DNA of 61,749 bases, taken from the NCBI RefSeq assembly GCF_027364955.1, contig NZ_DAHXOI010000012.1, positions 1 to 61,749 on the forward strand, read 5' to 3'. Below, piece after piece: positions 4,266 through 21,668 of the stretch. The notes under the pieces were generated by a model. It did not search any database. It worked only from the letters and a program-made list of their open reading frames with translations, and was not told the DNA's origin. How positions within the stretch are numbered: position 1 is the first letter of the stretch; every line of letters starts with the position of its first letter. Source of the DNA: Ferrimicrobium sp. (lineage in GTDB: Bacteria; Actinomycetota; Acidimicrobiia; Acidimicrobiales; Acidimicrobiaceae). Both the position numbers and the translations under genes were made by a program.

Positions 4266-5099
4266 ATGTCCCTTTCGGTGAACACAAACATCTCGGCGAT
4301 CGAGGCGTATAACAACTTAAACGCAACGAACAACGCGATGCAGACAACTATTAATCAACTGTCATCTGGTCTGCAGATTCAGACGGCGGCCAACAACGCA
4401 GCAGGCTATGTGATCTCCCAGGGCCTTGAGACCCAGGCGAACGGCCTTGGCGTTGCGATCAACAACGGACAAGACGCAAACTCGGTGCTCCAGATTGCCA
4501 CCGGCGCCATGAACCAACAGGTGGCTATCCTGCAGACGATGAACCAGTTAGCAACCCAAGCTGCAAACTCAGGCGCATCGAATACCAATTCGCTCACTGC
4601 AGACCAGCAGGAGTTTGCGGCGTTGCAGAATCAGCTCGATCAGATCGCAAATTCGACCCAGTTTGGCAGCCAGCAGTTGCTGAATGGTAGTTTCGCAAAC
4701 GAGTCGTTCCAGATCGGTGCCTACGACAGTTCTGTTGATCAGATTGTCGTAACGATTGGGGCATTGACGACCGGCGCACTTGGAGTCTCAAGTGGTACAA
4801 TTAGCATTGGTTCCTCCACTGCTGCCCTTGGGGCAATGTTGGCAGTCCAATCGGCGATTACGCAAGTGGCAACCACGGAAGCTCAAGTTGGTGCGATCCA
4901 GAATCAGATCCAGGCCATTGTTGCTAACGATACAGTGGGCCAGCAGAATGTGACCTCGGCAAACTCCACGCTGATCGACACCAATATGGCCCAAGCTATG
5001 ACGACGTTCTCGTCGCAGCAGGTGCTGATGCAGGCTGGTGTGGCGATGTTGTCACAAGCTCAAGCATTGCCGCAGTTGATTCTCAAACTTCTGCCATAA
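4266..5099 (+). CDS. fliC: Flagellin
   Basis: Filament subunit of 277 residues. The N-terminal D0/D1 region is present (MSLSVNTNISAIEAYNNL, LSSGLQIQTAANNAAGYVIS), as is the C-terminal helix (VLMQAGVAMLSQAQALPQL). The variable centre is short. A strong Shine-Dalgarno site (AAGGAGG) precedes the ATG and a strong terminator follows, so it is probably its own transcript. The composition is unusual: no arginine, one lysine (near the C-terminus) and about 12 acidic residues in the whole protein. The conserved Arg of the usual SGLRI motif is Gln here. Function is secure; the charge depletion is probably adaptation to acid. Confidence 0.95.
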   Translation: MSLSVNTNISAIEAYNNLNATNNAMQTTINQLSSGLQIQTAANNAAGYVISQGLETQANGLGVAINNGQDANSVLQIATGAMNQQVAILQTMNQLATQAANSGASNTNSLTADQQEFAALQNQLDQIANSTQFGSQQLLNGSFANESFQIGAYDSSVDQIVVTIGALTTGALGVSSGTISIGSSTAALGAMLAVQSAITQVATTEAQVGAIQNQIQAIVANDTVGQQNVTSANSTLIDTNMAQAMTTFSSQQVLMQAGVAMLSQAQALPQLILKLLP

Positions 5100-5114
5100 G
5101 TTATTTCGATCGAT

Positions 5115-5148
5115 GGATGGGCCGGAGAGCATGCTCTCTGGCCCATCC
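5115..5148 (+). terminator. Rho-independent terminator after flagellin
   Basis: A long hairpin: GGATGGGCC and GGCCCATCC arms enclose GAGAGC/GCTCTC, with single-base bulges, followed by a T-rich run (about 5150-5165). It separates the highly expressed flagellin from fliD. Confidence 0.85.
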
Positions 5149-5187
5149 TGGTTTCTTTCCTTTTCCCTTCTGCAATGAGGAGGTCGA

Positions 5188-7737
5188 ATGTCTTCCGTCT
5201 CTCCAACAACGACTACGACGTCGACGACGCCTACCACCAGTAGCACGACGTCGACGAGTTCCACGAACCCTTTTGCCCCGCCGATTCAGTTCAACGGGGT
5301 GATCTCTGGTCTTGATACCAGTTCCATTATCAACGCACTAATGCAGGCCTATGAACAACCCCAGGTTGATATCCAGAACCAGATCACCTCGCTTCAGACC
5401 AACCTGAACGACTATCAGCAGCTTTCGGCGGACCTTCTCAGCTTGCAGAGCGCGGCGAGTAATCTGACCTCGAGTGCGGATTGGCAAGTGATGTCAGCGT
5501 CGACCTCAAACTCTGCCGTTGCGACCGCCACCACTTCAACCGGCGCCGCTCCCTCGACGATCAGTTTCAACGTTGACCAGCTCGCACAAGCCAACGTTCT
5601 GGCTGGCTCCAGCACCGTGAGTTCCCTCTCCTCGACCGTTGCCTCTGGGAATTTTCTTCTTTCCTCGACCGCCGCCGGATTTGGTGTCACCTCACTGGCA
5701 GGGAGTTCATTGGCGGTTGGGTCACACTCCTTCGATGTCACCCAGGCATTGACCGGTGGTACCGCTTCGACAACATCGGCACTGGCGAGTTCGACAACCA
5801 TAGGGTCCTCCAACGATACCATCACCGCCAACGTGAATGGGACCGCCCAAACCTTCACGATTGCCAGTGGCACGTACACACCGTCCCAACTTGCCCAAGC
5901 GATCACCGCAGCGACGTCGGGGAGTGGCACACCTTTGGTGAATGCTACGATCGACGCTCGCGGCCAACTCCAGCTCAGTACTGCTCTACTCGGAAGCTCT
6001 TCTTCCTTGCAAGTCACCGGTGGTACGGCGTTGACGAGCCTCGGTCTTGCCACACAATCGACTGCCTCAGTGGGTACCGCTGGAGCGATTACGCTCGACG
6101 GCACAGCCACCAGTATCAACAACGTCCAAGCTGGCTCCACGACGACGCTGACCGACGGTTCGGGGGGCACGGTGACCCTCGGTGTCGGCACATCAGGTCT
6201 CGCAAAGGGTAGTTTTTCGGCGACGGAGGTCTCTGCGGGGAGCGGCAGCTTAAGTCAGGTGGTGAGCAACATCAACGCTGCGAACGCCGGTGTAACCGCC
6301 TCTGCTGTGGGGGTAGGCACTAACGCTTATATTCTGCAGCTCTCCTCTAACACCACGGGCACCAACGGCAATATCACCGTTGAGTCGTCACCGTTTTCAG
6401 CGTCAGTCGGTAGCTTCAACTCCATCACCCAGGGCCAGGACGCGGTGATCAACGTCGGTGGTTCCAATGGGTATGAACTGTCCTCACAGACTAACACGGT
6501 CTCGGGTGTCCTGCCAGGGGTCAGCATCAACCTGGTCTCCGCTCAGGCTCCTGGATCTTCGCCGGTAACTCTCTCGGTTACCCCGGACGGGAAGGCGATG
6601 GCCACCAGTGTCCAAACCTTGGTGACGGCCGCCAACACCGCGCTATCTGATATCAACAAGTACGCTGGTTACAACGAGGCAACGGGTTCCGGTGGACCAC
6701 TGATGGGTAACTCGAGCCTCAACGCCATTACTTCGCAGATTCTCGGAGTCATCTCGAACGTTGTCGGTCTCAATGGATCGACCGCCGCTACCGCAGGGTT
6801 AAACCTTAATAAGAACGGCTCCATTGACTTCAACGCCACCACCTTTGCCCAGGCCTTTGATGCGAACCCTTCACAGGTCTCCTCTCTGTTTACACAGGGC
6901 GGCACCCTTCAAGCTGCATCGAATGCCTATTCGGGTTCCGTCACGCTCAACTACGCGGGTGATGCCACTGCTGCTGGGAGCTACCCAATTGTGATCACGC
7001 AGTCAGCAACCCAGGCGGTTGACACTGGCAGCGTCGTTGCTGGAGGCGCGATCACCAGTGCGGAGAACCTCTCGATCACCTCATCTGGGACGACCGCAAC
7101 CTACGCAGCTAGTGCCGGCGAGTCGCTCACCAGTATTGCGCAGGGATTAAACGCCGCCTTTGTGGCTTCTGGCCTGTCCCTCTCGGCGACGGTGAAGACG
7201 AGTTCTTCCGGTGCGCAGCTCGTGGTGTCATCCGATTCCTATGGTTCTGCGGGGAGCTTTTCGATTGCCACCAGTGGTACAACTGGCCAACTTGGCCTCA
7301 CAGCAAATGGCACCACCTACACGGGATCGAACGTCGCAGGAACGATCGACGGGGTGCAGGCTACCGGGAATGGTCAGTTTCTCTCCGCACCCATCACCAA
7401 CGCGACGCTCGCGGGTCTTACGGTGCAGGTGACCGCGACCGGCATCTCTGGTACCGCCACCAACCTTGGCAACTTTGACTACACTCCCGGGATTGCTGGC
7501 GGCTTTGCCACGACTGGATACCAGGCAAGTGATCCGGTGAATGGCTCGATCACTTCAACGATCGCCAGTATTAATCAACAAATCTCGAGTTTGCAGCAAC
7601 AGTATGCAAACTATACGCCGATGATCAACTCAGAGCAGAAGATGCTTCAGCAGGAGTTCAACAATATGGAGACCCAGCTTGGGTCGTTAAAGAACCAGGG
7701 AAGTTATCTCACTAGCGAGATCGCCCAACTCCCGTAG
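5188..7737 (+). CDS. fliD: Flagellar filament cap protein FliD (HAP2)
   Basis: The 849-residue cap protein sits at the filament tip and promotes flagellin polymerisation. The N-terminal signature is FNGVISGLDTSSIINALMQAYEQPQ (about 34-58, given in part: SGLDTSSIINALM). The C-terminal coiled coil has ASINQQISSLQQQYANY and EQKMLQQEFNNMETQL. It is much longer than the usual 450-650 residues because of a Ser/Thr/Gly-rich middle. Basic residues are almost absent (about 1 Arg and 7 Lys in 849). It starts at ATG 5188 after a GAGG site and is followed at 12 bp by fliS. Long antisense frames here are artefacts of the repetitive composition. Confidence 0.93.
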   Translation: MSSVSPTTTTTSTTPTTSSTTSTSSTNPFAPPIQFNGVISGLDTSSIINALMQAYEQPQVDIQNQITSLQTNLNDYQQLSADLLSLQSAASNLTSSADWQVMSASTSNSAVATATTSTGAAPSTISFNVDQLAQANVLAGSSTVSSLSSTVASGNFLLSSTAAGFGVTSLAGSSLAVGSHSFDVTQALTGGTASTTSALASSTTIGSSNDTITANVNGTAQTFTIASGTYTPSQLAQAITAATSGSGTPLVNATIDARGQLQLSTALLGSSSSLQVTGGTALTSLGLATQSTASVGTAGAITLDGTATSINNVQAGSTTTLTDGSGGTVTLGVGTSGLAKGSFSATEVSAGSGSLSQVVSNINAANAGVTASAVGVGTNAYILQLSSNTTGTNGNITVESSPFSASVGSFNSITQGQDAVINVGGSNGYELSSQTNTVSGVLPGVSINLVSAQAPGSSPVTLSVTPDGKAMATSVQTLVTAANTALSDINKYAGYNEATGSGGPLMGNSSLNAITSQILGVISNVVGLNGSTAATAGLNLNKNGSIDFNATTFAQAFDANPSQVSSLFTQGGTLQAASNAYSGSVTLNYAGDATAAGSYPIVITQSATQAVDTGSVVAGGAITSAENLSITSSGTTATYAASAGESLTSIAQGLNAAFVASGLSLSATVKTSSSGAQLVVSSDSYGSAGSFSIATSGTTGQLGLTANGTTYTGSNVAGTIDGVQATGNGQFLSAPITNATLAGLTVQVTATGISGTATNLGNFDYTPGIAGGFATTGYQASDPVNGSITSTIASINQQISSLQQQYANYTPMINSEQKMLQQEFNNMETQLGSLKNQGSYLTSEIAQLP

Positions 7738-7749
7738 AAAGGATGCCCT

Positions 7750-8130
7750 GTGGCCTATTCTGGCAAGCGAAGTTACACCATCAATGCGGTCCAGACCGCC
7801 TCGCCAGCGACGCGTTTGGTGATGGTGATCGACCAATTGGATGCCTCTCTCGCCCGCGCACTGAGCGGTTATGAGAAGAATGATCTCTACGAGATTCACT
7901 GTGGGCTAAAGAATGCACAGGCTGTTGTGGCCTTGCTCCGCGATTGCCTGCAGGTCGAAGTGTGGGATGGTGCGAGTGATATGCGGCGACTGTATGAGTA
8001 CTCGCTTGATCGTCTCGTCCGCTCAAACCTTGCCAAGGAGCGCGAGTTGCTCGCAGAAGCTGAGGCAGTCCTTCGCCCACTGATGAGTGCCTGGCGCCAG
8101 GCAGCGGTCTTGGTGAACGCGGATGGATGA
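7750..8130 (+). CDS. fliS: Flagellin export chaperone FliS
   Basis: A 126-residue cytoplasmic helical protein that binds the flagellin C-terminus and prevents early polymerisation. It is identified by length, by position right after fliD, and by family features: YTINAVQTASPATRLVMVIDQLDASLARAL at the start, followed by helices (AQAVVALLRDCL, YEYSLDRLVRSN). The start is GTG at 7750 with AAAGGA upstream. It overlaps the next small gene by 8 nt. Confidence 0.88.
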   Translation: MAYSGKRSYTINAVQTASPATRLVMVIDQLDASLARALSGYEKNDLYEIHCGLKNAQAVVALLRDCLQVEVWDGASDMRRLYEYSLDRLVRSNLAKERELLAEAEAVLRPLMSAWRQAAVLVNADG

Positions 8131-8401
8131 GTGGCTCGCCTATCTTGACGCGTACGAAGCGCATCTGAATGCCGTCGCAGACTCCCTCGCCACCGGCAGA
8201 GTGGTGACGACGAGCTTCTGCTGCGAACAGCCAAGCGTCCATCTGCCTCGGGCCCTGCGGGATCGTTCGGAGTCGCTCGTGCTTCGTACGCAGGAGTTGA
8301 GTGAGGAGTTGCGTTCGCGCATGGACGCATTTGCAACAGTGTTGCGATATTCTCGCATGAAAGATCCTGAGCGGATTGTGCTGATCGACGTACTTGCCTA
8401 A
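8123..8401 (+). CDS. FliT-like small flagellar protein (by position)
   Basis: A 92-residue, probably helical protein overlapping the end of fliS. It has no motif I can assign. In many flagellar loci fliS is followed by fliT, a small helical chaperone for FliD, and the length and place fit that role. The sequence MDEWLAYLDAYEAHLNAV and the C-terminal Arg-rich helices are compatible with a chaperone but do not prove it. A coupled start (ATG 8123 inside fliS) supports a real gene. Confidence 0.55.
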   Translation: MDEWLAYLDAYEAHLNAVADSLATGRVVTTSFCCEQPSVHLPRALRDRSESLVLRTQELSEELRSRMDAFATVLRYSRMKDPERIVLIDVLA

Positions 8402-8764
8402 CTGGTGGCGCCTATGGCGCTGTTTTCGCTGCGGACGGCGCTGAACTTCGACCGGGCGAGCGGTTACCGCCGCTCGATAACTTGCTTGAGATCACTCATA
8501 TCCTTTGTGGACGATCCTCGTCTTTGCCACGAATTTCCTCGAACGAATTCGGCATGTGTACCGAGCATGTCTGATAGCACTGTTCTAGTGAACGATTCCA
8601 ACTATTTGCTTTGACTTGGCTTCCTCCCACTGGTGGGTACAATGATCTAGTAGCCATCAACAAAAGTTATTTAAGTGGGTACATGGATGAACCGAAGCTC
8701 TTCATGCGGGCATGGATCGCTCGGAAGTGGGCTACGGATAGCTTTACTTTGAAAGGGCGCTACC
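8402..8764. other. Intergenic region before the flgB operon
   Basis: This 363-bp region has no convincing gene. It holds a short hairpin (GCGCC/GGCGC, 8408-8420, followed by TGTTTT) and a 7-bp stem, CGAGCGG/CCGCTCG (8457-8476); either may end the fliD-fliS transcript. The likely promoter for the long flagellar operon follows (8616-8643). Open frames at 8405-8614 and 8611-8805 lack ribosome-binding sites and family resemblance. Confidence 0.6.
8616..8643 (+). promoter_or_regulatory. Candidate promoter of the flagellar operon with palindromic spacer
   Basis: TTGGCT (8616-8621) and TACAAT (8638-8643) are separated by 16 bp. The spacer ends with the palindrome CCCACTGGTGGG (8626-8637), abutting the -10, a natural place for a regulator. 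It lies about 120 bp upstream of flgB, the first gene of an unbroken run to 29853. Confidence 0.4.
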
Positions 8765-9103
8765 GTGGGTTCTACCTCGATTCAGGCTCTCCAGTTTGCT
8801 CTTGATGGATTAACATCGCAACAGCAGGCGATCGCGAATAACCTGGCCAACGTCAACACGCCGGGTTTCCAAGCGACCAACGTCTCCTTCCAGTCTTCGC
8901 TTTCGAATGCGCTGGCCAACGGAGGGACTGCATCAGCGACACTTACCCCGTCGACTAACCCGGAATCACTTGATGGCAACAATGTCTCTATGGGTAACCA
9001 GTTGGTTCGGTTGCAGAACAATGCGCTGGCATACCAAGCCGTCTCCGATCAACTTACCACGCAATTCCAGATTCTCTCAGGAGCGATGGGAGGTCAATTC
9101 TGA
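8765..9103 (+). CDS. flgB: Flagellar basal-body rod protein FlgB
   Basis: A 112-residue proximal rod protein. It has the rod/hook N-terminal signature (about 25-38, AIANNLANVNTPGFQA) and a C-terminal helix ending in FQILSGAMGGQF. The start is GTG at 8765 with AAAGGG upstream. It holds one Arg and no Lys. The stop overlaps the flgC start by one base. First gene of the main flagellar operon. Confidence 0.93.
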   Translation: MGSTSIQALQFALDGLTSQQQAIANNLANVNTPGFQATNVSFQSSLSNALANGGTASATLTPSTNPESLDGNNVSMGNQLVRLQNNALAYQAVSDQLTTQFQILSGAMGGQF

Positions 9104-9537
9104 TGTCACTCTTCGGTGCAATCAACATCGCGGGAACTGGCGTGAGTGTTGAGCAAACCTGGCTTAATTCCATCGGTTCAAACATCGCGAATGCGAATGA
9201 TATCGCAGGAGTCAATCAACCACAGTACCAAGAACAAGAGGTTCTGGTCGCTCCAAAGCCGTCAGTCAACTCGTCAGGGATTCCTAACTTTACCAACTAT
9301 GCACTTGGGGATGGCGTGCAGGTGAGTTCCATTGTCACCCCGAAACCCAACGGTGAATTGACCTATGATCCAAGTTCCACGCTGGCGAACAAACAGGGCA
9401 TGGTCAAGGAGCCAGGAATCAACCTCGGCACTCAGCTTGGGGATCTCGTCACCGCTCAATACAGCTACGAGGCAAACGCATCGGTCATCAGTCAGGCAAA
9501 AGCTGCCTATCTGTCAGTCCTTGGGATCGTGAGCTGA
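9103..9537 (+). CDS. flgC: Flagellar basal-body rod protein FlgC
   Basis: A 144-residue rod protein with the family signature near the N-terminus (NSIGSNIANANDIAG, about 22-36) and the C-terminal helix SYEANASVISQAKAAYLSVLGI. It lies between flgB and fliE as in most bacteria and overlaps both neighbours by one base, showing tight coupling. Confidence 0.93.
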   Translation: MSLFGAINIAGTGVSVEQTWLNSIGSNIANANDIAGVNQPQYQEQEVLVAPKPSVNSSGIPNFTNYALGDGVQVSSIVTPKPNGELTYDPSSTLANKQGMVKEPGINLGTQLGDLVTAQYSYEANASVISQAKAAYLSVLGIVS

Positions 9538-9836
9538 TGGTCCCCGCGATCGGTGCCATCACCTCAAGTCTTGGCGCAAACCTGCCGCCGATTGGTTCCA
9601 GCGCGCCGAGTGCAAGCTCGAGTTCCTTTGGCCAGATTCTCGGCAACGCTATCGATTCACTCCAAGGCACACAAGCAACGGCGGCGACACAGGCGCAACA
9701 GGTTGCTGCGGGTCAAGCAAATCTCAGTGATGCCATGGTGGCATCCAACGAATCTCTACTCGCGACGCAGTTAGTGGTCGCGCTGCGCAATGGTGCGGTG
9801 AGTGCCATCAATCAAGTGATGTCGACACAGTTCTAG
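9537..9836 (+). CDS. fliE: Flagellar hook-basal body protein FliE
   Basis: A 99-residue protein joining the MS ring to the rod. Family features: SSFGQILGNAIDSLQGTQATA in the middle (about 30-45) and the C-terminal ANLSDAMVASNESLLATQLVVALRNGAVSAINQVM. One Arg, no Lys. The last five codons and the stop form the first unit of a 16-bp tandem array that continues into the gap before fliF. Confidence 0.92.
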   Translation: MVPAIGAITSSLGANLPPIGSSAPSASSSSFGQILGNAIDSLQGTQATAATQAQQVAAGQANLSDAMVASNESLLATQLVVALRNGAVSAINQVMSTQF

Positions 9837-9956: not shown

Positions 9957-11498
9957 ATGGCATCGACGGATACCTTGTCGAATGTGACGAAGAGTCTCAA
10001 GAAGTTTGCAGACGGTTTCACCACCGGTCAGAAGGCCGTTGTCTTGGTTGGTCTCGCGATCGTGGTGGCCATCGTCTTTGTGGTCTCGTCGATGACCTCC
10101 AAGCCGACGTATGGAGTGTTGTTTACGAACCTGTCAGCCTCGGATGCGGGATCTATCACCTCCAAACTCACCAGTGCCGGGGTCCCTTATCAGCTCGAGG
10201 ATTCGGGGTCGGTGATCGAGGTGCCACAAAACATGGTCGATCAAGAGCGTATCGCGATGGCACAGGCTGGACTACCGGCCAACTCCACCGTAGGTCTCTC
10301 CTTGTTGTCGAGTGTTGGTATCACCACTTCGCAGATCACCCAACAGGCTGACTATCAGGAGGCGCTCCAGGGCCAGCTTGAGCAGACGATCGAGGCCATC
10401 AATGGCGTGCAGGCTGCACAGGTCAACTTGGCTTTGCCTCCCACCGATGTCTTTGCGGTCGGAGGAAACCAGACGCCCACGGCGTCGGTGATCGTCACGC
10501 TCGACAACGGCGTCACACTCTCCTCGACCCAGGTGCAGGCGATCGTGCACCTCGTCGCTTCGGCGATCCCGAACATGAACGCCAACGGGGTGACCGTCGT
10601 CGATCAGAACGGTGACGTCTTGGCCGCACCTGGTCAAGGAGTGACCGGAACGGGGACCAGTTCTGCGACCCAATCCTACGACAACACGCTGGAGGCGAGT
10701 CTGCAGTCGATGCTTGACTCGGTGCTCGGTCCGAACCAAGCCAATGTTCGAGTGGCCGCCACCCTCGACTACAACCAGGTGACGACCAAGTCGCAGCAGG
10801 TACCAACGGTCAAGGGAAAAGTCCAATCTGCACTCACCCAATCCAATACCCAGACGCAGACCTTTACGGGTGCCGGCACGGTCGCTGGCGGAACCCTTGG
10901 CGCGGTTACCCCGGCCCCCGGCAACGGCACCAACAGCAACTATAAGCAGAACTCGACGAATAACAGCTACGCGGTCGGTCAGATCGATCAGACGACCGTG
11001 CAGGCCCCCGGCCAGGTACAGCGCCTCTCGGTAGCGGTTGCGGTGAACTCAAAGCTCAAGGGGGGCTACTCACTCGCCAAGATCAAGAACATGGTCGCGG
11101 CGGCCGCTGGCATTGTCGCCAAGCGTGGGGACACCCTGAGCGTGGTTGCCCTGCCGTTTGCTACCCAGACCACGGCGGCACCTGCGGCCGCGAGCCCACT
11201 GGGTTCGATCTTCTCGTTGGGCAAAATCCTGTTGCTAGTGCTCGGAGTCGTCGGGGCTATCCTGTTGATGGCACGATCCTCGGCACGCACCGAGATTGAG
11301 CCCCTCTTCCTGGACGCAGCAGCTCCGACCATGGCGCTGGGTCCTGGCCCTAGCGATGCCACCCAACTCATGCCCGCCCTTTCGATGCCGATGGCCCAGC
11401 CGATCGTCGCCGATGACGTGCTCGATTACATCGATAAGCAACCAGACGATGTTGCCAAGCTGCTCCGCATCTGGATGGGATCACGGGGTGCGAGATAG
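9957..11498 (+). CDS. fliF: Flagellar MS-ring protein FliF
   Basis: The 513-residue MS-ring protein, base of the motor and housing of the export gate. Membrane segments at about 26-46 and 418-438 flank the periplasmic domain. Family motifs: YGVLFTNLSASDAG, LEQTIEAINGVQAAQVNLALP and VTVVDQNGDVLA. The C-terminal tail, which binds FliG, ends in QPDDVAKLLRIWMGS. Length is typical. fliG starts at the base after its stop. Confidence 0.95.
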   Translation: MASTDTLSNVTKSLKKFADGFTTGQKAVVLVGLAIVVAIVFVVSSMTSKPTYGVLFTNLSASDAGSITSKLTSAGVPYQLEDSGSVIEVPQNMVDQERIAMAQAGLPANSTVGLSLLSSVGITTSQITQQADYQEALQGQLEQTIEAINGVQAAQVNLALPPTDVFAVGGNQTPTASVIVTLDNGVTLSSTQVQAIVHLVASAIPNMNANGVTVVDQNGDVLAAPGQGVTGTGTSSATQSYDNTLEASLQSMLDSVLGPNQANVRVAATLDYNQVTTKSQQVPTVKGKVQSALTQSNTQTQTFTGAGTVAGGTLGAVTPAPGNGTNSNYKQNSTNNSYAVGQIDQTTVQAPGQVQRLSVAVAVNSKLKGGYSLAKIKNMVAAAAGIVAKRGDTLSVVALPFATQTTAAPAAASPLGSIFSLGKILLLVLGVVGAILLMARSSARTEIEPLFLDAAAPTMALGPGPSDATQLMPALSMPMAQPIVADDVLDYIDKQPDDVAKLLRIWMGSRGAR

Positions 11499-12509
11499 AT
11501 GACCCAGGTCAAGGACCTCACTGGCATGCAGAAGTCGGCTGCCGTATTAGTACAGCTCGGCACCGAGCTCGCCGCCCGGGTGTTGCGTTCGATGAGCGAG
11601 ACCGAGGCGGTAGCCCTCACCCTTGAGATCGCCAAGCTGCCAAGTCTTGAGAAGGAGACCATCACTGAGCTGATGGAGGAGTTTGTCGAGTCGGTGATCG
11701 CGGTCAAGACCGTGGGTCAAGGGGGGATGGACGCCGCGCGCGAGATCCTCTCGGCTCGTCTGGGTAAGAACCAGGCCGACGAGGTGCTCGCCCAGTTCTC
11801 TGGTCGTTCGGTCGAAAATCCACTCTCATTCCTTTCGCACGTAGAATCCTTCCAGCTCGCCTCCTTTTTGCAAGGGGAACACCCCCAGGCGGTGGCGTTG
11901 ATACTCTCGCATGTGCACTCAACGATGGCCGCAGAGGTCATGGGCGCGATGCCCGATGAGATGCGCGCTGACGTAACCCGACGTATCGCCCTCCTCAATC
12001 GGGTCGATCCGATGATCGTCGAACAAACCGCCGTTATCTTGCAGCGCAAACTCGCTGGACTGACGAAGGCTGGCCCAGTGGCGATGCACAGTGGACTCAG
12101 TTCCGTCGTTGAGATCCTCAACAATATCGATCAGACTACTGAGCGGCGCATCCTCTCTGACCTCGATGCCGTCGATCCTGAACTAGCTGATCGGATTCGG
12201 GAGCAGATGTTTGTCTTCGAGGATGTGCTCGCCCTTGATGATCGGACGCTCCAACGTGTGCTGCGGCAGGTGAGCCCGAAGGACCTGGCGGTTGCCTTGA
12301 AGGGCGTAGCACCCTCCTTGGTCGCCAAGGTGATGGGCAACATCTCCGAGCGCGCCGCGCTCGACCTTGAGGAGGAGATCGAGATCCTTGGTCCCGTTCG
12401 TCTCTCCACGGTCGAGACTGCCCAAGCATCTATCGTGCGGTCAGTTCGAGAGCTCGAAGCCGCCGGCGAGATCATGATCGCTCGTTCCGATGAGGAGCTG
12501 GTGAACTAG
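11499..12509 (+). CDS. fliG: Flagellar motor switch protein FliG
   Basis: The 336-residue rotor protein that contacts the MotA stator. N-terminal FliF-binding part (KSAAVLVQLGTELAARVLRSM), middle part with EHPQAVALILSHV (near 127-139), and C-terminal torque helix region (FVFEDVLALDDRTLQRVLRQV). It abuts fliF and fliH without gaps. Confidence 0.95.
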   Translation: MTQVKDLTGMQKSAAVLVQLGTELAARVLRSMSETEAVALTLEIAKLPSLEKETITELMEEFVESVIAVKTVGQGGMDAAREILSARLGKNQADEVLAQFSGRSVENPLSFLSHVESFQLASFLQGEHPQAVALILSHVHSTMAAEVMGAMPDEMRADVTRRIALLNRVDPMIVEQTAVILQRKLAGLTKAGPVAMHSGLSSVVEILNNIDQTTERRILSDLDAVDPELADRIREQMFVFEDVLALDDRTLQRVLRQVSPKDLAVALKGVAPSLVAKVMGNISERAALDLEEEIEILGPVRLSTVETAQASIVRSVRELEAAGEIMIARSDEELVN

Positions 12510-13151
12510 ATGGAGCCACGATCGAATCCAAACGATGTCATCCGTCTCGATCTGCCCTCAGTCGACTCCGTCTTGGAGGATATTGGACTCGGGAACGCGA
12601 CGACAGCACGATCGACGAGCCAGTGGCGCGAAGAGCTCGAACTCGCCCGTGGCGAGGGTTTCACTGCGGGTATCGAGCACGCCAGAAGTATCCTCGATCG
12701 GGAGCTCAAAGAGGAGCTGGAACGCTATCGCAGGAATAACGAACTCCTCGATGCAGCGATTCGCGGACTTCACCAGGCTCGAGCTCAGCAGTTTTCGTTG
12801 GAGCTCGCTGATATCATTCGTTTCGCTCTCGAACTGACCCAGCGTATCCTGCGCACCGACGTCGCAGATCCGATCGATCGCATCCAAAAGATCGTGGATG
12901 AGACGGCAGAATCAGCGGCGGCCCAGGAGACATTTTTAGTGCGGGTTGCCACAGACAACCTCGAAGCCGTCAGCGCCGTTGTGCTTCCGAAGTTGTTGGA
13001 CCAGGGTTTCGAGGCGGTGGCGGTCGTCGGTGAAGGGTTCGGTATCCATGATCTTGTCATCGAGTCAGGTGCACGCGTCCTTGACGCTCGAATCGCTACG
13101 GCCTTTGAACGGGTCGTGAATGAGCTGGGGAGTTGGCACCATGATTCCTGA
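12510..13151 (+). CDS. fliH: Flagellar export apparatus protein FliH
   Basis: A 213-residue cytoplasmic regulator of the FliI ATPase, resembling the peripheral stalk of F/V-ATPases. The N-terminus is variable, the middle is helical (about 50-110, rich in Glu and Arg), and the C-terminal domain includes LVRVATDNLEAV and GFGIHDLVIESG. Immediately after fliG; its end overlaps the fliI start. Confidence 0.85.
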   Translation: MEPRSNPNDVIRLDLPSVDSVLEDIGLGNATTARSTSQWREELELARGEGFTAGIEHARSILDRELKEELERYRRNNELLDAAIRGLHQARAQQFSLELADIIRFALELTQRILRTDVADPIDRIQKIVDETAESAAAQETFLVRVATDNLEAVSAVVLPKLLDQGFEAVAVVGEGFGIHDLVIESGARVLDARIATAFERVVNELGSWHHDS

Positions 13152-14451
13152 GCTGATGCGGGAGCGACTGTTGTCGGTGGTCGAACCAACGCCGAGGGGG
13201 CGTGTCTGTCGGTTGGTGGGGATGCACCTCGAGGTTGAGGGAGTCGAAGCGGGGATCGGGGATGCGGTCGTGGTGGATCTGGGAGGGAATAAGACCCTGA
13301 TCGCGGAGGTCGTTGGGCTCGATAACCAGCGGCTCATCTGCATGCCTTTTAAGGAGATGACCGGTGTGCGTTATGGCAATCCGGCATGGTCACTGAAGCG
13401 GCCACCTCTCTTTCCGGTTGGACCAGCCCTCCTGGGAAGGGTCTTGGACTCGGAGGGGCGCCCGATTGACCAACTCGGACAGCTCGCACCCGAGGATCTA
13501 GTGGTGATCGATGGCAGGGCACCTTCGCCAATGGATCGCACCCTCATCGACGAGCAACTCTCGCTTGGGATACGGGTCATCGACACACTGGTCCCGTGTG
13601 GGATCGGCCAGCGGCTCGGTGTCTTTGCTGGAGCTGGAGTGGGGAAGTCTTCACTGTTGTCGATGATGATCCGCGGTGCCGATGTCGATGTGATCGTGTT
13701 GGCGCTCGTAGGAGAGCGAGGACGCGAGGTGAAGGAGTTCTTAGAACACGATCTCGGTCCCGAAGGATTGGCCAAGGCGGCGATCGTGGTGGCCACCTCT
13801 GATGCACCACCGTTGTTGCGTGTGCGTGCAGCACTGGCGGCGACAAGGGTCGCGGAGTGGTTCCGTGATCAGGGGAAACGCGTTCTGCTCGTGATGGACT
13901 CACTGACTCGGCTCGGTTTGGCACAGCGCGAGATTGGGCTCTCGGCGGGTGAGCCGCCGAGCGTGCGCGGTTATCCGCCCTCGGTCTTTGCGTTGATGGC
14001 ACGACTGTTGGAGCGAGCCGGCACCTCGAGCCGCGGAAGTATCACCGGAATCTATTCGGTCCTCGTCGATGGGGACGACTTGAATGATCCAATCGCCGAC
14101 TCCGCACGTTCAGTGCTCGATGGTCACATCGTCCTCAGCCGGAGCCAGGCCCAGCGTGGTCTCTATCCAGCGGTGTCGGTATTGGAGTCGATCTCGCGCC
14201 TTGAGACTGCGATCCTTGATGAGTCCCAGCGTGCATTAGCCCATGAGGCTCGGCGGCTCTACGCCGAACTCGATCAGGTGCGCGACCTGATCGATCTTGG
14301 TGCCTACGTCGCTGGCTCGAATCCAAACGTCGATCGAGCGCTTGCTGTCGTCCCTCGGTTAACGCAGCTATTTGCGCAGGATCTGATGGACTTGACCCCG
14401 GCGTCTGCAACCTGGTCACGGTTATCTCAAGTACTCGGGGTGACACAATGA
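13141..14451 (+). CDS. fliI: Flagellum-specific export ATPase FliI
   Basis: A 436-residue F1-beta-like ATPase that energises substrate unfolding for flagellar export. Walker A is GAGVGKSS (about 164-171); further motifs are VIVLALVGERGREVKEF, VLLVMDSLTRLGLAQREI (Walker B) and GEPPSVRGYPPSVF. I chose ATG 13141 because GGGGAG lies 8 nt upstream; an in-frame ATG at 13120 would add 7 residues but has no ribosome-binding site. It overlaps fliH by 11 nt and fliJ by ATGA. Confidence 0.95.
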   Translation: MIPELMRERLLSVVEPTPRGRVCRLVGMHLEVEGVEAGIGDAVVVDLGGNKTLIAEVVGLDNQRLICMPFKEMTGVRYGNPAWSLKRPPLFPVGPALLGRVLDSEGRPIDQLGQLAPEDLVVIDGRAPSPMDRTLIDEQLSLGIRVIDTLVPCGIGQRLGVFAGAGVGKSSLLSMMIRGADVDVIVLALVGERGREVKEFLEHDLGPEGLAKAAIVVATSDAPPLLRVRAALAATRVAEWFRDQGKRVLLVMDSLTRLGLAQREIGLSAGEPPSVRGYPPSVFALMARLLERAGTSSRGSITGIYSVLVDGDDLNDPIADSARSVLDGHIVLSRSQAQRGLYPAVSVLESISRLETAILDESQRALAHEARRLYAELDQVRDLIDLGAYVAGSNPNVDRALAVVPRLTQLFAQDLMDLTPASATWSRLSQVLGVTQ

Positions 14452-14861
14452 ACCTAGCTGGTCGCCGACGAGCGTTAACGCTGTTACTTCGTATGCAAGA
14501 GATTGAGCGTTGGGGTCATCTACGCGAGCTGCGAGAGGCTGCCGAGCGTCGCGGTGCAGAACTCGACAAGGTGGATGACCATCTTGCCGTCGTCGAGGCT
14601 CGTAGCGATTTTGGAACCCTTGGTCCAGTGCATCTCTCGTTGGCTGCGCAACATGGAGAACGCGCCTTGGCGGCGACGCAGACTATGGCGGTGCAGGAGC
14701 GAGTCCTGGTCGCCATCGATGCGAAGCGTAGGACGCTTGAGGATCTGCGTACCGCGACCGTTGGTGAACTTGAGCGCCAACGCGCCCGACGTGAGCTCGT
14801 TGAAGTTCTTGATTTCTTTGTAGCCCGCCAAATTTTTGATCGTCAACTAAGGAGTGAGTGA
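14448..14861 (+). CDS. fliJ: Flagellar export protein FliJ
   Basis: A 137-residue basic, coiled-coil protein directly after fliI, as expected for FliJ, the central stalk and chaperone-escort of the export ATPase. The sequence is variable in this family, so the call rests on length, predicted helices (RLQEIERWGHLRELREAAERR-like heptads) and place. Coupled to fliI (ATGA) and to the next gene (TGATG). Confidence 0.8.
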   Translation: MNLAGRRRALTLLLRMQEIERWGHLRELREAAERRGAELDKVDDHLAVVEARSDFGTLGPVHLSLAAQHGERALAATQTMAVQERVLVAIDAKRRTLEDLRTATVGELERQRARRELVEVLDFFVARQIFDRQLRSE

Positions 14862-16003
14862 TGAACGCCATCCCCGCAACCCTTCCAGCGCTCACCGATC
14901 TTTCTAATGCCTTTGGCCAACTGGCCAGTCAGGCTACCTCGGCGAGTGGGCCGGGTGAGTTTCTCCAAACTCTCAATCAAGTGCAGTCGACGATTGGGTC
15001 GATTCTCGATCCGACAGCGGCCACAAGTACCTCGTCAGCCGTTGATTCCTCGGCCGTGACCAACACGGGAACATCCTTGGCTGCAGGGATGACGAGTATG
15101 GGACTTGGCACGACGACTGGTACCACAGGAGCCGAAACGGCCGGCACCGGTCTGGTGAGCACGCCCGCGTTGACGGCGTCGGCAGCGTTCGGGGCAACAC
15201 CAGCGACGAGCCCTGTGGGAACTGCTAGTCAGAGCTCCTCTCCGGTGACCCAAGCGGTTGCCAATGCCTTGAATGAGATCGGTGTCCCCTATGTCTGGGG
15301 CGGTTCCTCTCCATCGACCGGGTTCGATTGCTCTGGGTTGGTGCAGTGGGCCTATGGCCAGGCCGGTATCGATCTGCCACGAGTGGCTGACCAACAAGAG
15401 CAGGTGGGGACCCAGGTCGCCTCGTTGGCTCAGGCACAACCTGGTGATCTGGTCTTCTATGGCAACCCTGCCTATCACGTGGGAATCTATCTCGGCAACG
15501 GATACATGGTCGATGCACCTGAGACGGGACAGACCGTGCAGATCCAGCCAGTGGGGGACCCAACCGAGATTCGCTCCGTTGCGCCGGCCATGAACAGTGC
15601 TCAGGTGAACGCGCCATCAGACCTATCCTCTGTCTTTGCGGCGGCGACCCAGGCCTACAACCTGCCACCGAATCTGTTGACTTCGGTAGCAACGGCGGAG
15701 TCTGGGATGAATCCATCCGCGGTCTCCTCTGCGGGTGCAGAAGGACTCATGCAGATTATGCCGCAGACGGCCGCCTCGTTAGGTGTGAATCCGATGAACC
15801 CTACCCAGGCGATCTATGGAGCTGCTGAACTCCTTTCTCAGAAATTAACCAAGTTTGGATCAGTGCCACTTGCTTTGGCGGCCTACAACGCAGGCGACGG
15901 GGCGGTGGAGCAGTACGGAGGTATCCCACCGTATGCCCAGACGCAAAACTACGTGACCGAGGTCATGGGACTCATGGGAGGCCAAAATGTCACCAATAGC
16001 TAG
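14861..16003 (+). CDS. Two-domain peptidoglycan hydrolase (NlpC/P60 + lytic transglycosylase) in the flagellar operon
   Basis: A 380-residue protein. After a low-complexity N-terminus (1-125) comes an NlpC/P60 endopeptidase domain (about 129-235) with catalytic Cys157 in GFDCSGLVQWAYG and His206 in YHVGIYLG. An SLT-type lytic transglycosylase domain follows (about 252-370), with catalytic Glu280 in ATAESGMNPSA, then AEGLMQIMPQTA and ALAAYNAGDGAV. It could cut both peptide and glycan strands, opening the wall for the rod, a task done elsewhere by FlgJ. No signal peptide is visible, so export by the flagellar system is possible. ATG 14861 is chosen for its AAGGAG site. Confidence 0.9.
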   Translation: MNAIPATLPALTDLSNAFGQLASQATSASGPGEFLQTLNQVQSTIGSILDPTAATSTSSAVDSSAVTNTGTSLAAGMTSMGLGTTTGTTGAETAGTGLVSTPALTASAAFGATPATSPVGTASQSSSPVTQAVANALNEIGVPYVWGGSSPSTGFDCSGLVQWAYGQAGIDLPRVADQQEQVGTQVASLAQAQPGDLVFYGNPAYHVGIYLGNGYMVDAPETGQTVQIQPVGDPTEIRSVAPAMNSAQVNAPSDLSSVFAAATQAYNLPPNLLTSVATAESGMNPSAVSSAGAEGLMQIMPQTAASLGVNPMNPTQAIYGAAELLSQKLTKFGSVPLALAAYNAGDGAVEQYGGIPPYAQTQNYVTEVMGLMGGQNVTNS

Positions 16004-17381
16004 TTCAACAACCACACCGCTCCTTGAGGTGCTGCCTCGAGAGTCTCCAAAGGCGAGTGCTGCGTCAACGCCTCAGGCTACCTCCAAGGAACACGATGAG
16101 GCTGGTGGTGCCAAAACTCACCTCCCGCCGACCTTTGCGGAGGTACAAGCGGGCCTGGATCGGCCTGTGGTCAATCGGCATCGGCCAACAACGCTGATCC
16201 CTGTCGTCACGACCCTGACAGCCCCCGTTCCTTCGGCGATCGCTCAGGCTGGTCACGATACCAAGGAATCTGGACAACCTATGGGTGGAGTGGCGGCCCT
16301 TGCCACGAGGAGCGACGCTACCGACCTCCTTCCCGCGCCCCCGACGCCCCCTGGCGCTCCAATGGTGCAGAACCTAGGGAACGTAGCAGCTCAAACCCGG
16401 ATTGTGACGCCGGAAGACGTTGGTGGCCAGGCTCAGGCTGCTGCGTCGACAACGAAGCCGGTAGCTGTCGTATCCTCGGCGAGCGAGGCACAAGCAGTGG
16501 CCGTAGTACTACCACCGCAGGTTCCTCTGGGTAAGGATCGCCAGATCGGTGTCGCCATTCCAACAAGCCTGCCGGGCCGAGGCGGAGAGGAGGTCGGCGC
16601 GTCACTCGCACCCCTTTCACCAGCTACCAGTGTCAGCCGCGCACCGGTCATGGGCGACGGATTGCCACGACCAGTCTCTCGTAGTTCTTCAGCGGCTGCA
16701 CCGTTACCCGCGTCCGGTAGATCGAATCAAGGTAGTCAAACCCTTGGTATCCGATGGTCTCTGTCTGCTGCACCGTTACCCGCGTCCGGTAGATCGAATC
16801 AAGAGGTGAACGCAAAGGCCGAAACTAATGCGTACAGTGGCTCCCAGCTTGTCGATGGACAATCTCGCGTGGTGCACCAACCAGCACAGGTTGGCCCGCT
16901 CGTCGAGATGAATGGAGCGAGCCCACTACAGCGCCTCGATATGGCCCCGCCTCCCTCCGTCCCCGTGGCTGGTGCGACTGGTGAAGCGGTGGCATCCTCC
17001 CCGCTGGGGCAACTCGGCAATATCGTAGCGCAGGTGGTTCGGGAGGGTAATCTTCCAAGGACGATCACCATCGCACTTGAACCAAAGGAACTTGGGCAGC
17101 TTCAGCTGCAGGTGACCTCGAATGGTGGTGAAATCCAGGTTCATATCCAGATAGCGGATCCACTGACGAGAGGGATCGTGAGCCAGCAGCTCAGTGATTT
17201 GACCAATACATTGCAGCGTGATCTTGGATTTGGTGGCCAGCAGACTGGGGGACAGGGGGAGCCATCACAGTCCTCGTCATCCGATGGAGTGCCGATGCTC
17301 GGCGCGACGCCTGGTGCGCATATCGCAGCTGGAGCTCAGACGGCTGTAGTTACACATTCGCTTGTCGATGTACGGCTCTAA
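15987..17381 (+). CDS. fliK: Flagellar hook-length control protein FliK
   Basis: A 464-residue protein with a long, Pro/Ala/Gln-rich N-terminal ruler and a conserved C-terminal export-switch domain (about 340-420: ITIALEPKELGQLQLQVTSN, then VHIQIADPLTRGIVSQQL). It contains an in-frame duplication: 37 bp at 16695-16731 recur at 16767-16803, giving two copies of AAPLPASGRSNQ 24 residues apart. It overlaps the hydrolase by 17 nt and precedes flgD. Confidence 0.88.
   Translation: MSPIASSTTTPLLEVLPRESPKASAASTPQATSKEHDEAGGAKTHLPPTFAEVQAGLDRPVVNRHRPTTLIPVVTTLTAPVPSAIAQAGHDTKESGQPMGGVAALATRSDATDLLPAPPTPPGAPMVQNLGNVAAQTRIVTPEDVGGQAQAAASTTKPVAVVSSASEAQAVAVVLPPQVPLGKDRQIGVAIPTSLPGRGGEEVGASLAPLSPATSVSRAPVMGDGLPRPVSRSSSAAAPLPASGRSNQGSQTLGIRWSLSAAPLPASGRSNQEVNAKAETNAYSGSQLVDGQSRVVHQPAQVGPLVEMNGASPLQRLDMAPPPSVPVAGATGEAVASSPLGQLGNIVAQVVREGNLPRTITIALEPKELGQLQLQVTSNGGEIQVHIQIADPLTRGIVSQQLSDLTNTLQRDLGFGGQQTGGQGEPSQSSSSDGVPMLGATPGAHIAAGAQTAVVTHSLVDVRL
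16695..16803 (+). repeat. In-frame 37-bp direct repeat in fliK
   Basis: The same 37 bp occur at 16695-16731 and 16767-16803. The 72-bp period equals 24 codons, so the duplication keeps the reading frame and lengthens the ruler part of FliK. Confidence 0.95.
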
Positions 17382-17402: not shown

Positions 17403-17861
17403 ATGACCTTACCTATTAGCTCGGTCGGTGCTTCAAGTGCGATGGGGGCGGCCAATGGCGCTGCTACCAATCCATCCAACACCTCAAATAACTCGATTGC
17501 CTCACTCTCATCTAATGAGTTTCTACAGCTCCTGGTCACTGAGTTGACGAACCAGAATCCACTCTCGCCGATGAACCCGAGTGCGATGGTGCAACAGACC
17601 TCAAGTCTGTCGATGGTGCAACTTCTTGACAGCGTCAGCAATGAACTGCAATCGCTCCAATCTCAGGAAGGAGTGGTGAACGCCTCCAGCCTGATCGGCC
17701 AGACGGTGAGCTACACGACGGCGGGAGGCACCCAAGGGAGCGGCGTGGTCTCGGGAGTAGCGATGGCGAACGGATCACTCAATCTCAATATCGATGGGGT
17801 GGCGATACCGAGTGCCGAAGTGACCGCCGTCGGCAAGACGATCGGAGGCGCGAGCAACTGA
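17403..17861 (+). CDS. flgD: Flagellar hook cap / assembly protein FlgD
   Basis: A 152-residue hook-cap scaffold. It carries the FlgD N-terminal motif FLQLLVTELTNQNPLSPM (about 39-56) and then QQTSSLSMVQLLDSV, followed by a short C-terminal domain. It is short for the family, lacking the long C-terminal domains of enteric FlgD. One Lys and no Arg in the whole protein. It sits between fliK and the hook gene. Confidence 0.93.
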   Translation: MTLPISSVGASSAMGAANGAATNPSNTSNNSIASLSSNEFLQLLVTELTNQNPLSPMNPSAMVQQTSSLSMVQLLDSVSNELQSLQSQEGVVNASSLIGQTVSYTTAGGTQGSGVVSGVAMANGSLNLNIDGVAIPSAEVTAVGKTIGGASN

Positions 17862-17967: not shown

Positions 17968-19257
17968 ATGACCAAGTCCCTATCCGCAGCCATCACCGGT
18001 ATCAACGCCGATCAGCAGTGGCTTGACAACATCGCCAACAACATCGCCAACTCGAACACCGTTGGCTACCAATCGACCTCGATCCAATTCGCTGACCTAC
18101 TCTATCAGCAGTCGCAAGGAGCGGGCGCGCCCACCGTGGGCAATCAGGGCGGTACCAACCCGATTGTGATGGGATCGGGTGTGCGGGTCGCCAGCGACAA
18201 CACCAACTTCGCCCAAGGAACGATGCAACAGACGGGGGTCTCAACGGACCTCGCGATCTCCGGTAACGGTTTCCTTGTAGTCTCTCAGGGAGGCCAAGAC
18301 TACTACACCACCGACGGCGCGCTACAGCTCGATGCTGCTGGTCAACTTGTGACCTCCACTGGTGCGATCGTGCAGGGCTGGGCACCAGGGGCCAACGGGC
18401 AGATCAATCCGAACAGTCCACTCACCGGCATCACGATTCCCCAAGGTCAAGTAGCGAACCCAGTGGAGACTCAGAACATCACCTTGGGAGGCAACTTGGC
18501 GGCTGGCGCAACGAATCCGGTGACGGTTACGACCACCGCGTATGACTCTCTAGGTGACCCGATTCCAATTACCTTTACGTTTACCCCGCCATCAGGAGGT
18601 TCGTCATCGACGAGCGACACATGGACAGTGTCGGCAACGGCCGCAGCGGCACCGGGGTCGAGTTCATCAACACCTGTGACGCTTTCCCTATCACCGAGCT
18701 CGATTAGCTTCTCCAGTACCACGGGCCAACTTACCAGCCCGACCACGCCGATCACGTTGACATTTCCGACAGGTTCGGGTTATAACCTCAAGACCTCGAC
18801 GATGAACCTCGACTTCCCAGCTGCTGGCTCCACCAACGCGGTTACTCAATTCGCCGGGAACTCCTCATCCTTGGCGGTCACCAACCAAGACGGGGCTCCC
18901 TCTGGCGCACTGACGGGCTTTAGCATCGGATCAGACGGAACGGTGCAGGGCACCTATGCGAACGGCACCAAGCAGGTGCTTGGCCAGATCGCGAGTGCGT
19001 TGTTCACGAACCCCGAGGGTCTTGCCAAGCAGGGGAACCTCCTCTACCAGGCAACCCTGAACTCGGGCGCTGCGCAACTTGGAGCGGCGGGAGCGGGTGG
19101 TCGTGGGACCTTTGTGGGCGGCTCGGTGGAGGAGTCGAATGTGAACCTCGGTAATGAGCTGACCGACCTGGTGCTTGCACAGACCGCCTATCAGGCGAAT
19201 ACAAAGGTGGTCTCCACGACCGCCTCGGTTCTCCAATCTCTGGTGCAGATGGCATAA
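17968..19257 (+). CDS. flgE: Flagellar hook protein FlgE
   Basis: A 429-residue hook subunit. N-terminal rod/hook signature (WLDNIANNIANSNTVGYQ, about 18-35), the FlgE hairpin (ISGNGFLVVSQGGQDYYTTDG), a variable centre, and C-terminal ESNVNLGNELTDLVLAQTAYQANTKV. A strong AAGGAGG Shine-Dalgarno site precedes the ATG. No flgF or flgG is found in the window; this is the only gene of the FlgE/F/G group, and length and place after flgD favour hook. About 2 Arg and 5 Lys. Confidence 0.93.
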   Translation: MTKSLSAAITGINADQQWLDNIANNIANSNTVGYQSTSIQFADLLYQQSQGAGAPTVGNQGGTNPIVMGSGVRVASDNTNFAQGTMQQTGVSTDLAISGNGFLVVSQGGQDYYTTDGALQLDAAGQLVTSTGAIVQGWAPGANGQINPNSPLTGITIPQGQVANPVETQNITLGGNLAAGATNPVTVTTTAYDSLGDPIPITFTFTPPSGGSSSTSDTWTVSATAAAAPGSSSSTPVTLSLSPSSISFSSTTGQLTSPTTPITLTFPTGSGYNLKTSTMNLDFPAAGSTNAVTQFAGNSSSLAVTNQDGAPSGALTGFSIGSDGTVQGTYANGTKQVLGQIASALFTNPEGLAKQGNLLYQATLNSGAAQLGAAGAGGRGTFVGGSVEESNVNLGNELTDLVLAQTAYQANTKVVSTTASVLQSLVQMA

Positions 19258-21182: not shown

Positions 21183-21668
21183 ATGGCGACCAAGATGGCA
21201 CCAGCAGAGGCGACCCCAGAGGAGCAGCCGAAGAAGAAGGGTAAGAAGAAGTTGATGCTCATCATCTTGGTGGTGGTGATCGCGGCGGTAGCAGCCTACT
21301 TCTTGGTGCTGAAGAAGCCCCCAAAGACTGCGAAGGGAACGAAGGCGGCCGTAACGCTGCCGAGCATCTCCTACACGATGCCGGTCATTACGACCAATCT
21401 CGACGATGGCCACATCGTTCAGGCCCAAATGCTCCTTGAACTCGCGCCGGGAGATACCAAGGCTGAGGTTGTCAAGGACCTTCCACAACTGAACAACGCT
21501 GCGATCTTGAGCTTTGGTGGCATGGGCTATAGCGAACTCCTTCCGACCTCAGGCAGAACGCAGGCGGCGGTGACGCTGACCAATGCCTTCAACACAGTGT
21601 TGCATACTGGACCAAAGCCCTGGGACACGGTGCAGTCCATCCTCTTTGCGAGTTTCATCGTGCAGTAG
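21183..21668 (+). CDS. fliL: Flagellar basal-body-associated protein FliL
   Basis: A 161-residue protein with a Lys-rich cytoplasmic start, one membrane segment (about 24-42) and an external domain typical of FliL, which rings and supports the stator. It lies between motB and fliM, as usual. A GGAGG site precedes its ATG. Confidence 0.88.
   Translation: MATKMAPAEATPEEQPKKKGKKKLMLIILVVVIAAVAAYFLVLKKPPKTAKGTKAAVTLPSISYTMPVITTNLDDGHIVQAQMLLELAPGDTKAEVVKDLPQLNNAAILSFGGMGYSELLPTSGRTQAAVTLTNAFNTVLHTGPKPWDTVQSILFASFIVQ

Follow-up and report, generated by a model that had tools for sequence, protein, structure and literature searches.

Near absence of lysine and arginine from the external flagellar proteins of Ferrimicrobium and its relatives: a probable adaptation to acid

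The flagellum of Ferrimicrobium sp. (Actinomycetota; Acidimicrobiales), whose gene cluster lies on a stretch of 61,749 nucleotides (NCBI RefSeq assembly GCF_027364955.1, contig NZ_DAHXOI010000012.1, positions 1 to 61,749 of the forward strand; herein referred to as the window), is built on its outside from proteins that contain almost no lysine or arginine. The two residues together make up 0.4–1.6% of FliC, FliD, FlgB, FliE, FlgD, FlgE, FlgK, FlgL and a FlgJ-like hydrolase, but about 10% of the cytoplasmic proteins FliG, FliH and FliI. From the comparison of homologous sequences we consider it very probable that this is an acid-adapted flagellum, in which the ion pairs and the unpaired positive charges of the outside parts have given way to neutral side chains capable of hydrogen bonding. 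Low external pH would be the selective force, and electrostatic repulsion and the loss of ion pairs would be what is avoided.

Results

Lysine and Arginine Are Nearly Absent from the Exported Flagellar Proteins

Judged by Pfam assignments, the flagellar gene cluster in the window, part of an Acidimicrobiales genome of 3.08 Mb, is an ordinary one, and rod, hook, cap, motor and export genes are present; by FliI, its nearest relative with a name is a Ferrimicrobium metagenome-assembled genome (MAG) with 97% identity (among the best 80 of 173 loci, which were kept from the FliI search of named genomes). Protein families were assigned with Pfam, and lysine and arginine were recounted from the DNA. 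We give Lys plus Arg as a percentage of residues (K+R) and Asp plus Glu likewise (D+E), and use FliC, FlgB, FlgC, FliE, FlgD and FlgE as the external set and FliG, FliH and FliI as the cytoplasmic set.

The flagellar genes of the window from FliC to FliL lie on the forward strand. The flagellin FliC (4266..5099; 277 residues) has one Lys, at position 274, and no Arg; it carries both helical domains of a bacterial flagellin (Pfam Flagellin_N and Flagellin_C, E = 2.1e-30 and 1.2e-14) and can be aligned over its whole length with flagellin filaments of known structure (9lah, E = 6.5e-44). The filament cap FliD (5188..7737; Pfam FliD_N, FliD_C) has seven Lys and one Arg in 849 residues. A single Arg and no Lys are found in both the proximal rod protein FlgB (8765..9103; 112 residues; Pfam Flg_bb_rod) and FliE (9537..9836; 99 residues; Pfam FliE), and the hook cap FlgD (17403..17861; 152 residues; Pfam FlgD) has one Lys and no Arg. 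The hook protein FlgE (17968..19257; 429 residues; Pfam FlgE domains) holds five Lys and two Arg, and the FlgJ-like wall hydrolase (14858..16003; 381 residues; Pfam NlpC/P60 and SLT domains) two of each. FlgK (467 residues, two Lys, two Arg) and FlgL (299 residues, three Lys, no Arg), encoded on a different contig, are equally poor. The mildest depletion among the axial proteins is that of the proximal rod protein FlgC (9103..9537; 144 residues; Pfam Flg_bbr_C), with five Lys and no Arg (3.5%).

The inside controls are FliG (11499..12509; 9.8% K+R; Pfam FliG), FliH (12510..13151; 10.8%; Pfam FliH below the cut-off, E = 2e-4), the ATPase FliI (13120..14451; 10.4%; Pfam ATP-synt_ab, T3SS_ATPase_C) and the cytoplasmic chaperone FliS (7750..8130; 11.9%; Pfam FliS). 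A preliminary description of this DNA had reported the counts for FliC, FliD, FlgD, FlgB, FliE and FlgE, normal contents in FliG, FliH and FliI, and the replacement of the Arg in the flagellin motif SGLRI by Gln; the recount reproduces every one of these values, and the motif indeed reads SGLQI. The depletion is wider than was described there, since it extends to the FlgJ-like hydrolase, FlgK and FlgL.

These values are extreme within the organism's own genome. In a sample of 451 kb (the window plus 20 further stretches, with 291 called genes), whole-protein K+R is lowest in seven genes that all encode exported flagellar proteins; a surface protein at 2.0% follows. At the mean of 9.77% over 164 proteins called cytoplasmic (a count that includes flagellar axial proteins without a signal peptide), FliC would be expected to hold 27 positive residues, and the probability of at most one is 1e-11; the corresponding probability for FliD is 2e-27. 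When the 7.2% average of 17 normal flagellins from actinobacteria is taken as the yardstick, the probabilities are 2e-8 for FliC and 3e-18 for FliD, and those of single small proteins are weaker (FlgB 2e-3, FliE 5e-3 and, weakest, FlgC 0.05).

Poverty in positive charge is shared by several other outside proteins of the genome and not by others, and the flagellum is the extreme. Four large, repeat-rich, Sec-secreted surface proteins reach, in their mature parts (cleavage points assumed), 1.3% K+R (stretch L212, 12289-14856) and 1.9, 2.4 and 3.8% (stretch L205, 3273-5633, 6071-8449 and 14150-16831; three paralogues with an NRKRRRAS tail); a Pfam scan of the proteins at L205:3273 and L212:12289 gave no match. 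Two secreted wall hydrolases stand at 3.2 and 3.3%. Lipoproteins are less poor than these surface proteins (mean 6.7%, range 4.7–9.9%, n = 5), and the mean over 22 Sec-secreted proteins called by a crude signal-peptide rule, which includes some clear cytoplasmic false calls, is 7.7%. FlgM and a Flp pilin were searched for in the genome and not found.

The Depleted State Is Discrete and Confined to the Outside

To place these values among other flagella, we searched 395 genomes of the class with FliE, of which 68 matched and 64 were read (the window included; G270, G209, G111 and G221 left out). Comparison models were cut to the columns of the window protein. Of 170 genomes or records with a flagellar match, 97 offered three or more external proteins together with a cytoplasmic one and were kept; of the 73 left out, 22 are genomes of the class without a cytoplasmic protein in the stretch, whose rod proteins are all normal (6.6–15.1% K+R, cruder envelopes inflating these figures). 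Three named MAGs occur twice among the 97, which leaves 94 distinct genomes, 33 of them depleted; the copies stay in the split, the replacement counts and the group means, and are removed from the depleted means given below for Actinomycetota, the normal means being as computed for all rows. In one genome (G399) a contig end truncates the flagellin, and FlgL took the place of FliC in the split, the replacement counts, the means and the charge computation; without it and the MAG copies the depleted FliC mean moves from 0.87 to 0.86%.

External K+R is bimodal: 36 of the 97 lie at 0.95–2.97%, none at 3–4% and 61 at 4.26–14.6%. Within Actinomycetota, the depleted and normal means are 0.9 and 7.2% for FliC, 1.7 and 9.1% for FlgB, 2.6 and 7.5% for FlgC, 1.5 and 7.1% for FliE, 1.2 and 6.9% for FlgD, 1.6 and 5.5% for FlgE and 2.0 and 7.6% for the FlgJ-like protein. 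The cytoplasmic means are 10.7 and 11.7% (FliG), 11.0 and 10.9% (FliH) and 11.0 and 10.7% (FliI), and cytoplasmic flagellar K+R spans 10.0–11.8% in the depleted group and 9.9–13.0% in the normal group, so that equal depletion of cytoplasmic proteins, which would have spoken against a compartment-specific change, is absent from all 97 genomes. Nor is the same composition found in neutrophilic relatives: those named actinobacteria and Bacillota of the comparison that belong to genera we take to be neutrophilic or alkaliphilic have external K+R of 6.1–9.1%, and depletion is absent from these relatives of presumably neutral or alkaline habitats. Ordinary external values are also found in many Acidimicrobiia (growth pH unrecorded).

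The boundary of the depletion falls inside a single polypeptide. In the MS-ring protein FliF (9957..11498; Pfam YscJ_FliF), split by hydropathy, the external part has 4.0% K+R and the cytoplasmic part 10.2%. Across genomes (34 depleted and 27 normal rows), the external part differs between the groups in both K+R (4.0 vs 7.5%) and D+E (4.7 vs 13.8%), and the cytoplasmic part far less (11.6 vs 13.2% and 13.3 vs 15.1%). The external domain of MotB (window gene 20385..21170; 7.3% K+R, 7.8% D+E; Pfam MotB_plug, OmpA) has its D+E halved in depleted genomes (7.1 vs 14.0%; 12 and 9 rows), and that of FliL (21183..21668; 7.6% K+R, 6.7% D+E; Pfam FliL) is intermediate (K+R 7.0 vs 10.5%, D+E 6.8 vs 16.1%; 7 and 5 rows). 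Together these patterns indicate that loss of Asp and Glu marks the external parts examined, and that near-complete loss of Lys and Arg characterizes the axial structure together with its helper proteins. The change is thus restricted to outside parts, as the split of FliF and the unchanged FliH and FliI attest, with the Lys and Arg of external MotB as the exception.

Both Members of Ion Pairs Are Replaced by Amide and Hydroxyl Side Chains

At columns where at least 60% of the normal actinobacterial rows carry Lys or Arg, depleted genomes retain a positive residue in 5.9% of the cells of FliC and 87.6% of those of FliI. In FliC these positions are most often taken by Gln, Asn, Thr or Ser. The other axial proteins retain more than FliC: 12.9% in FlgB, 22% in FlgC and 33% in FliE, FlgD and FlgE. 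Asp/Glu columns keep their charge in 24.7% of FliC cells, in 20–28% in the other axial proteins with the exception of FlgE (56%), and in 91.7% in FliI. Appendage proteins have lost nearly all of their positive and about half of their negative residues, both mostly to Gln, Asn, Ser and Thr. The preliminary description had spoken of positive charge, and this part holds; it is incomplete in that Asp and Glu are lost as well, and because the same four neutral residues mostly take their places too, the pattern looks like the removal of ion pairs and not only of positive charge.

With textbook pKa values, the computed charge of FliC per 100 residues at pH 2 is +1.3 in depleted and +8.1 in normal flagellins, in agreement with the proposal that such a filament would be nearly uncharged at low pH; at pH 7 the two are about equal (-3.6 depleted vs -3.3 normal). 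The computed sum for the window FliC is +1.7 at pH 2 and -11 at pH 7.

Depletion Recurs in Three Phyla

On a tree of FliG and FliI from the 92 distinct genomes that have both, the depleted state takes four changes, of which starred branches force three. Twenty-nine depleted genomes form one starred clade, with two f16 genomes and one normal genome on a long branch beside it. This clade invites the explanation that one Acidimicrobiales ancestor changed its composition for an unstated cause and that its descendants kept it. We regard inheritance of this kind as unlikely: the extremes persist over long branches while FliI retains its charges, and the depletion recurs in Alicyclobacillales and in Granulicella, and thus in three phyla in all. 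A flagellin match was obtained in 49 of 59 Alicyclobacillales genomes, and in the 30 that were read FliC ranges from 0.7 to 7.8% K+R within this one order. With Granulicella, described below, depletion is found again in acidophiles unrelated to the organism of the window.

Documented growth pH agrees with depletion in four organisms. Acidimicrobium ferrooxidans, which is motile and has a pH optimum of 2, has an external K+R of 0.99% (five proteins, FliC not among them). Alicyclobacillus tolerans, with an optimum of pH 2.5–2.7 (PMC5023266), stands at 2.6% externally and 1.1% in FliC, whereas A. macrosporangiidus and A. contaminans, both with optima of 4.0–4.5 (also PMC5023266), stand at 5.2 and 4.4% externally and at 4.9 and 4.7% in FliC (the FliC of A. 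contaminans being cut by a contig end).

In the fifth organism, Granulicella tundricola, depletion is found in FliC (2.2%), FliD (2.2%), FlgK (1.8%), FlgL (2.7%) and FlgG (3.0%), and not in FlgH (8.2%), FlgI (7.3%), FliS (11.1%) or FlgM (10.1%). The available part of one account gives this species as a tundra-soil bacterium with an optimum at pH 5 and describes it as non-motile (PMC4148992). Many flagellar genes of this acidophilic acidobacterium lie on plasmid NC_015057.1 despite that description.

A Lysine Is Spared at the Flagellin C Terminus

The sole positive residue of the window FliC, Lys 274, lies three or four residues from the C terminus. All 18 depleted actinobacterial flagellins whose ends fit the search pattern have a Lys at three to four residues from the end, as does the nonfitting flagellin of G384; of 24 normal ones, 2 have this Lys and 5 have Arg there. 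All 30 Alicyclobacillales flagellins carry it, whether depleted or not, and in that order it looks ancestral; it is also found in the FliC of Granulicella, and in none of 16 other normal flagellins. Depleted flagellins have 0.6% K+R in the body and 4.8% in the last 20 residues, where normal flagellins have 2.9%. In FlgE the last 20 aligned residues are alike in the two groups (4.8% depleted, 4.7% normal) and the middle is not (1.4 and 5.0%); the corresponding depleted and normal values for the last 20 residues are 5.3 and 13.7% in FliE, 4.6 and 10.4% in FlgC and 3.3 and 12.6% in FlgB. The least depleted segment across these five axial proteins is the C-terminal stretch of 20 residues (counted in the aligned region, except in FliC).

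The C-terminal tail of axial proteins lines the central channel in known structures. It is possible, and we suggest it tentatively, that the outer contacts of the depleted appendage rest on amide and hydroxyl hydrogen bonds and not on ion pairs, and that the C-terminal tail is separately constrained and keeps its positive charge. The terminal Lys could act in the channel, in docking to FliS or FlhA in the neutral cytoplasm, or in pairing with the terminal carboxylate; since few evolutionary events stand behind it, we treat it as a lead and not as proof.

Other Features of the Cluster

The ruler protein FliK (15987..17381; Pfam Flg_hook), exported and outside the finished appendage, has 6.25% K+R and is not stripped. 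Like FlgM, FliK is a substrate of the flagellar type III channel. In its middle the translation (window positions 15987-17381) shows a short direct repeat within the protein, SAAAPLPASGRSNQ / SAAPLPASGRSNQ. FliD, at 849 residues, is about twice as long as the FliD of Aeromicrobium and Granulicella (448-449 residues) and is very rich in Ser, Thr and Gly. An open reading frame directly 3' of FlhA (28409-29626) has no Pfam match; FlhF is often encoded at this position.

Discussion

Outside the cell at about pH 2, carboxylates would be protonated and salt bridges gone. Any Lys or Arg would then carry a positive charge without a partner, recurring in each subunit of a tightly packed helix and hence subject to mutual repulsion. 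Removing both partners of the ion pairs and placing amide and hydroxyl side chains instead would make the subunit contacts indifferent to pH and leave the filament nearly uncharged; a second constraint would spare the C-terminal tail of axial proteins, above all the one flagellin Lys. Ordinary filaments can be deliberately taken apart in acid: those of Pseudomonas aeruginosa are dissociated in a glycine-Triton buffer at pH 2.5 (PMC5431167). A compartment-specific adaptation of the whole appendage to acid, as proposed in the preliminary description, is supported in substance, but the change is not confined to the appendage, and the external domains of MotB lose Asp and Glu without being poor in Lys and Arg.

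Several observations weigh against an acid-adapted flagellum or loosen its fit. The external domains of MotB keep their Lys and Arg (8.4 vs 8.9%, p = 0.8; 12 and 9 rows), and inside the cell FliG (10.8 vs 11.7% with MAG copies, p = 8e-5) and the FliF portion that faces the cytoplasm (p = 0.005) are slightly lower in depleted genomes. External D+E stays at 8–10% in three depleted genomes (G401, G244 and G256; about 2% external K+R), whose filaments would, by composition, be strongly negative at neutral pH; one genome, G036, stands unexplained at 4.3% external K+R. Two Granulicella proteins, FlgF of the rod (6.9%) and the rod-binding protein (7.9%), show no strong depletion. Growth pH, documented for five organisms, does not grade strictly with depletion, Granulicella falling off such a grade: G. 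tundricola (pH 5) has 2.2% K+R in FliC and A. contaminans (pH 4.0–4.5) 4.7%. The independent events are also few, because the 31 depleted Acidimicrobiales of the tree make up one or two clades.

Other causes than acid must be weighed against these data. Under an economy hypothesis, abundant proteins lost to the medium are made of cheap, nitrogen-poor residues, and depleted external sets are indeed cheaper per residue (20.4 to 19.3, as computed from a table of residue costs) and poorer in side-chain nitrogen (0.31 to 0.20), with cytoplasmic cost unchanged at 21.1 and nitrogen moving from 0.38 to 0.36. Exchanging Asp and Glu for Asn and Gln, however, raises cost and adds nitrogen; relatives with ordinary flagella build an equally abundant filament without depletion, and the rod protein FliE, presumably of low copy number, is as depleted as the hook protein. 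We therefore rate economy as very unlikely. Some other stress of mine water has a similarly slight chance of being the cause: resistance to trypsin-like proteases would fit the scarcity of trypsin sites in depleted proteins, and avoided binding of metal sulfates and minerals would fit habitats that we understand to be rich in ferric iron and sulfate, but proteases that cleave at Lys and Arg give no reason for the loss of Asp and Glu, and the depletion is also found in the Granulicella of tundra soil. Least probable of all is that the flagellar type III channel favors few positive charges in its unfolded substrates at any outside pH, for although such substrates show the strongest depletion in the Ferrimicrobium genome, FliK (whose substrate status is given in the available part of PMC6972891, and whose model matched only five loci) and Granulicella FlgM are exported without being stripped, ordinary flagella use the same channel at mean external K+R of 5.5–9.1%, and some Sec-secreted surface proteins are poor in Lys and Arg too.

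An acid-adapted flagellum has a published counterpart among acidophile pilins. PilV of Acidithiobacillus thiooxidans, likewise a subunit of an external appendage with very few charged residues (four Glu, two Arg and one Lys), was found to stay soluble and stable when the pH changed; the authors of that study attribute the acid stability to low surface charge and cite low-charge bacterial pili and Ser/Thr-rich archaeal pili (PMC11016768, in the part available). PilV is a single minor pilin of an unrelated appendage, whereas here the change reaches the rod, the hook, the junction, the filament itself, the caps and the wall hydrolase; it stops partway along FliF, spares the C-terminal tail and can be set against 61 normal genomes. 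In their families and gene set these are ordinary flagellin and axial proteins, all matched by Pfam; they differ from ordinary axial proteins (means 5.5–9.1%) in the 0.4–1.6% K+R of most of them and in conserved charged positions that are mostly Gln, Asn, Ser or Thr.

Acid-stable extracellular enzymes also have the charge of outside proteins adapted to acid. In these, the Sulfolobus endo-glucanase for instance, an excess of surface Asp and Glu is described and the adaptation is called unclear and inconsistent (PMC3787623, in the part available); in the flagellum, unlike this, Asp and Glu fall too. The proteome of Methylacidiphilum infernorum likewise bears a compositional signature of acid life, but its shift of isoelectric point is proteome-wide and toward the basic (PMC2474590, in the part available), opposite to a flagellum that loses basic residues. 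The flagellum therefore matches the pilin pattern and neither the acid-enzyme nor the basic-proteome pattern. A literature search over titles and the beginnings of abstracts, with most subscription journals outside its coverage, returned no description of flagellar Lys/Arg depletion; the principle of charge removal is already published for acidophile pilins, and the machine-wide flagellar case may be new.

The flagellum of Ferrimicrobium and its relatives would thus be a machine-scale case of an assembly rebuilt for acid, with charged and uncharged homologues to compare, a boundary within one polypeptide and recurrence in three phyla, and it would carry an idea put forward for single pilins over to an entire rotary machine. 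Few charges survive in these proteins, which makes it testable which flagellar charges are truly needed. Flagellin composition could serve as a marker of external pH for uncultured motile bacteria, and the depleted filament may offer a template for acid-stable protein filaments.

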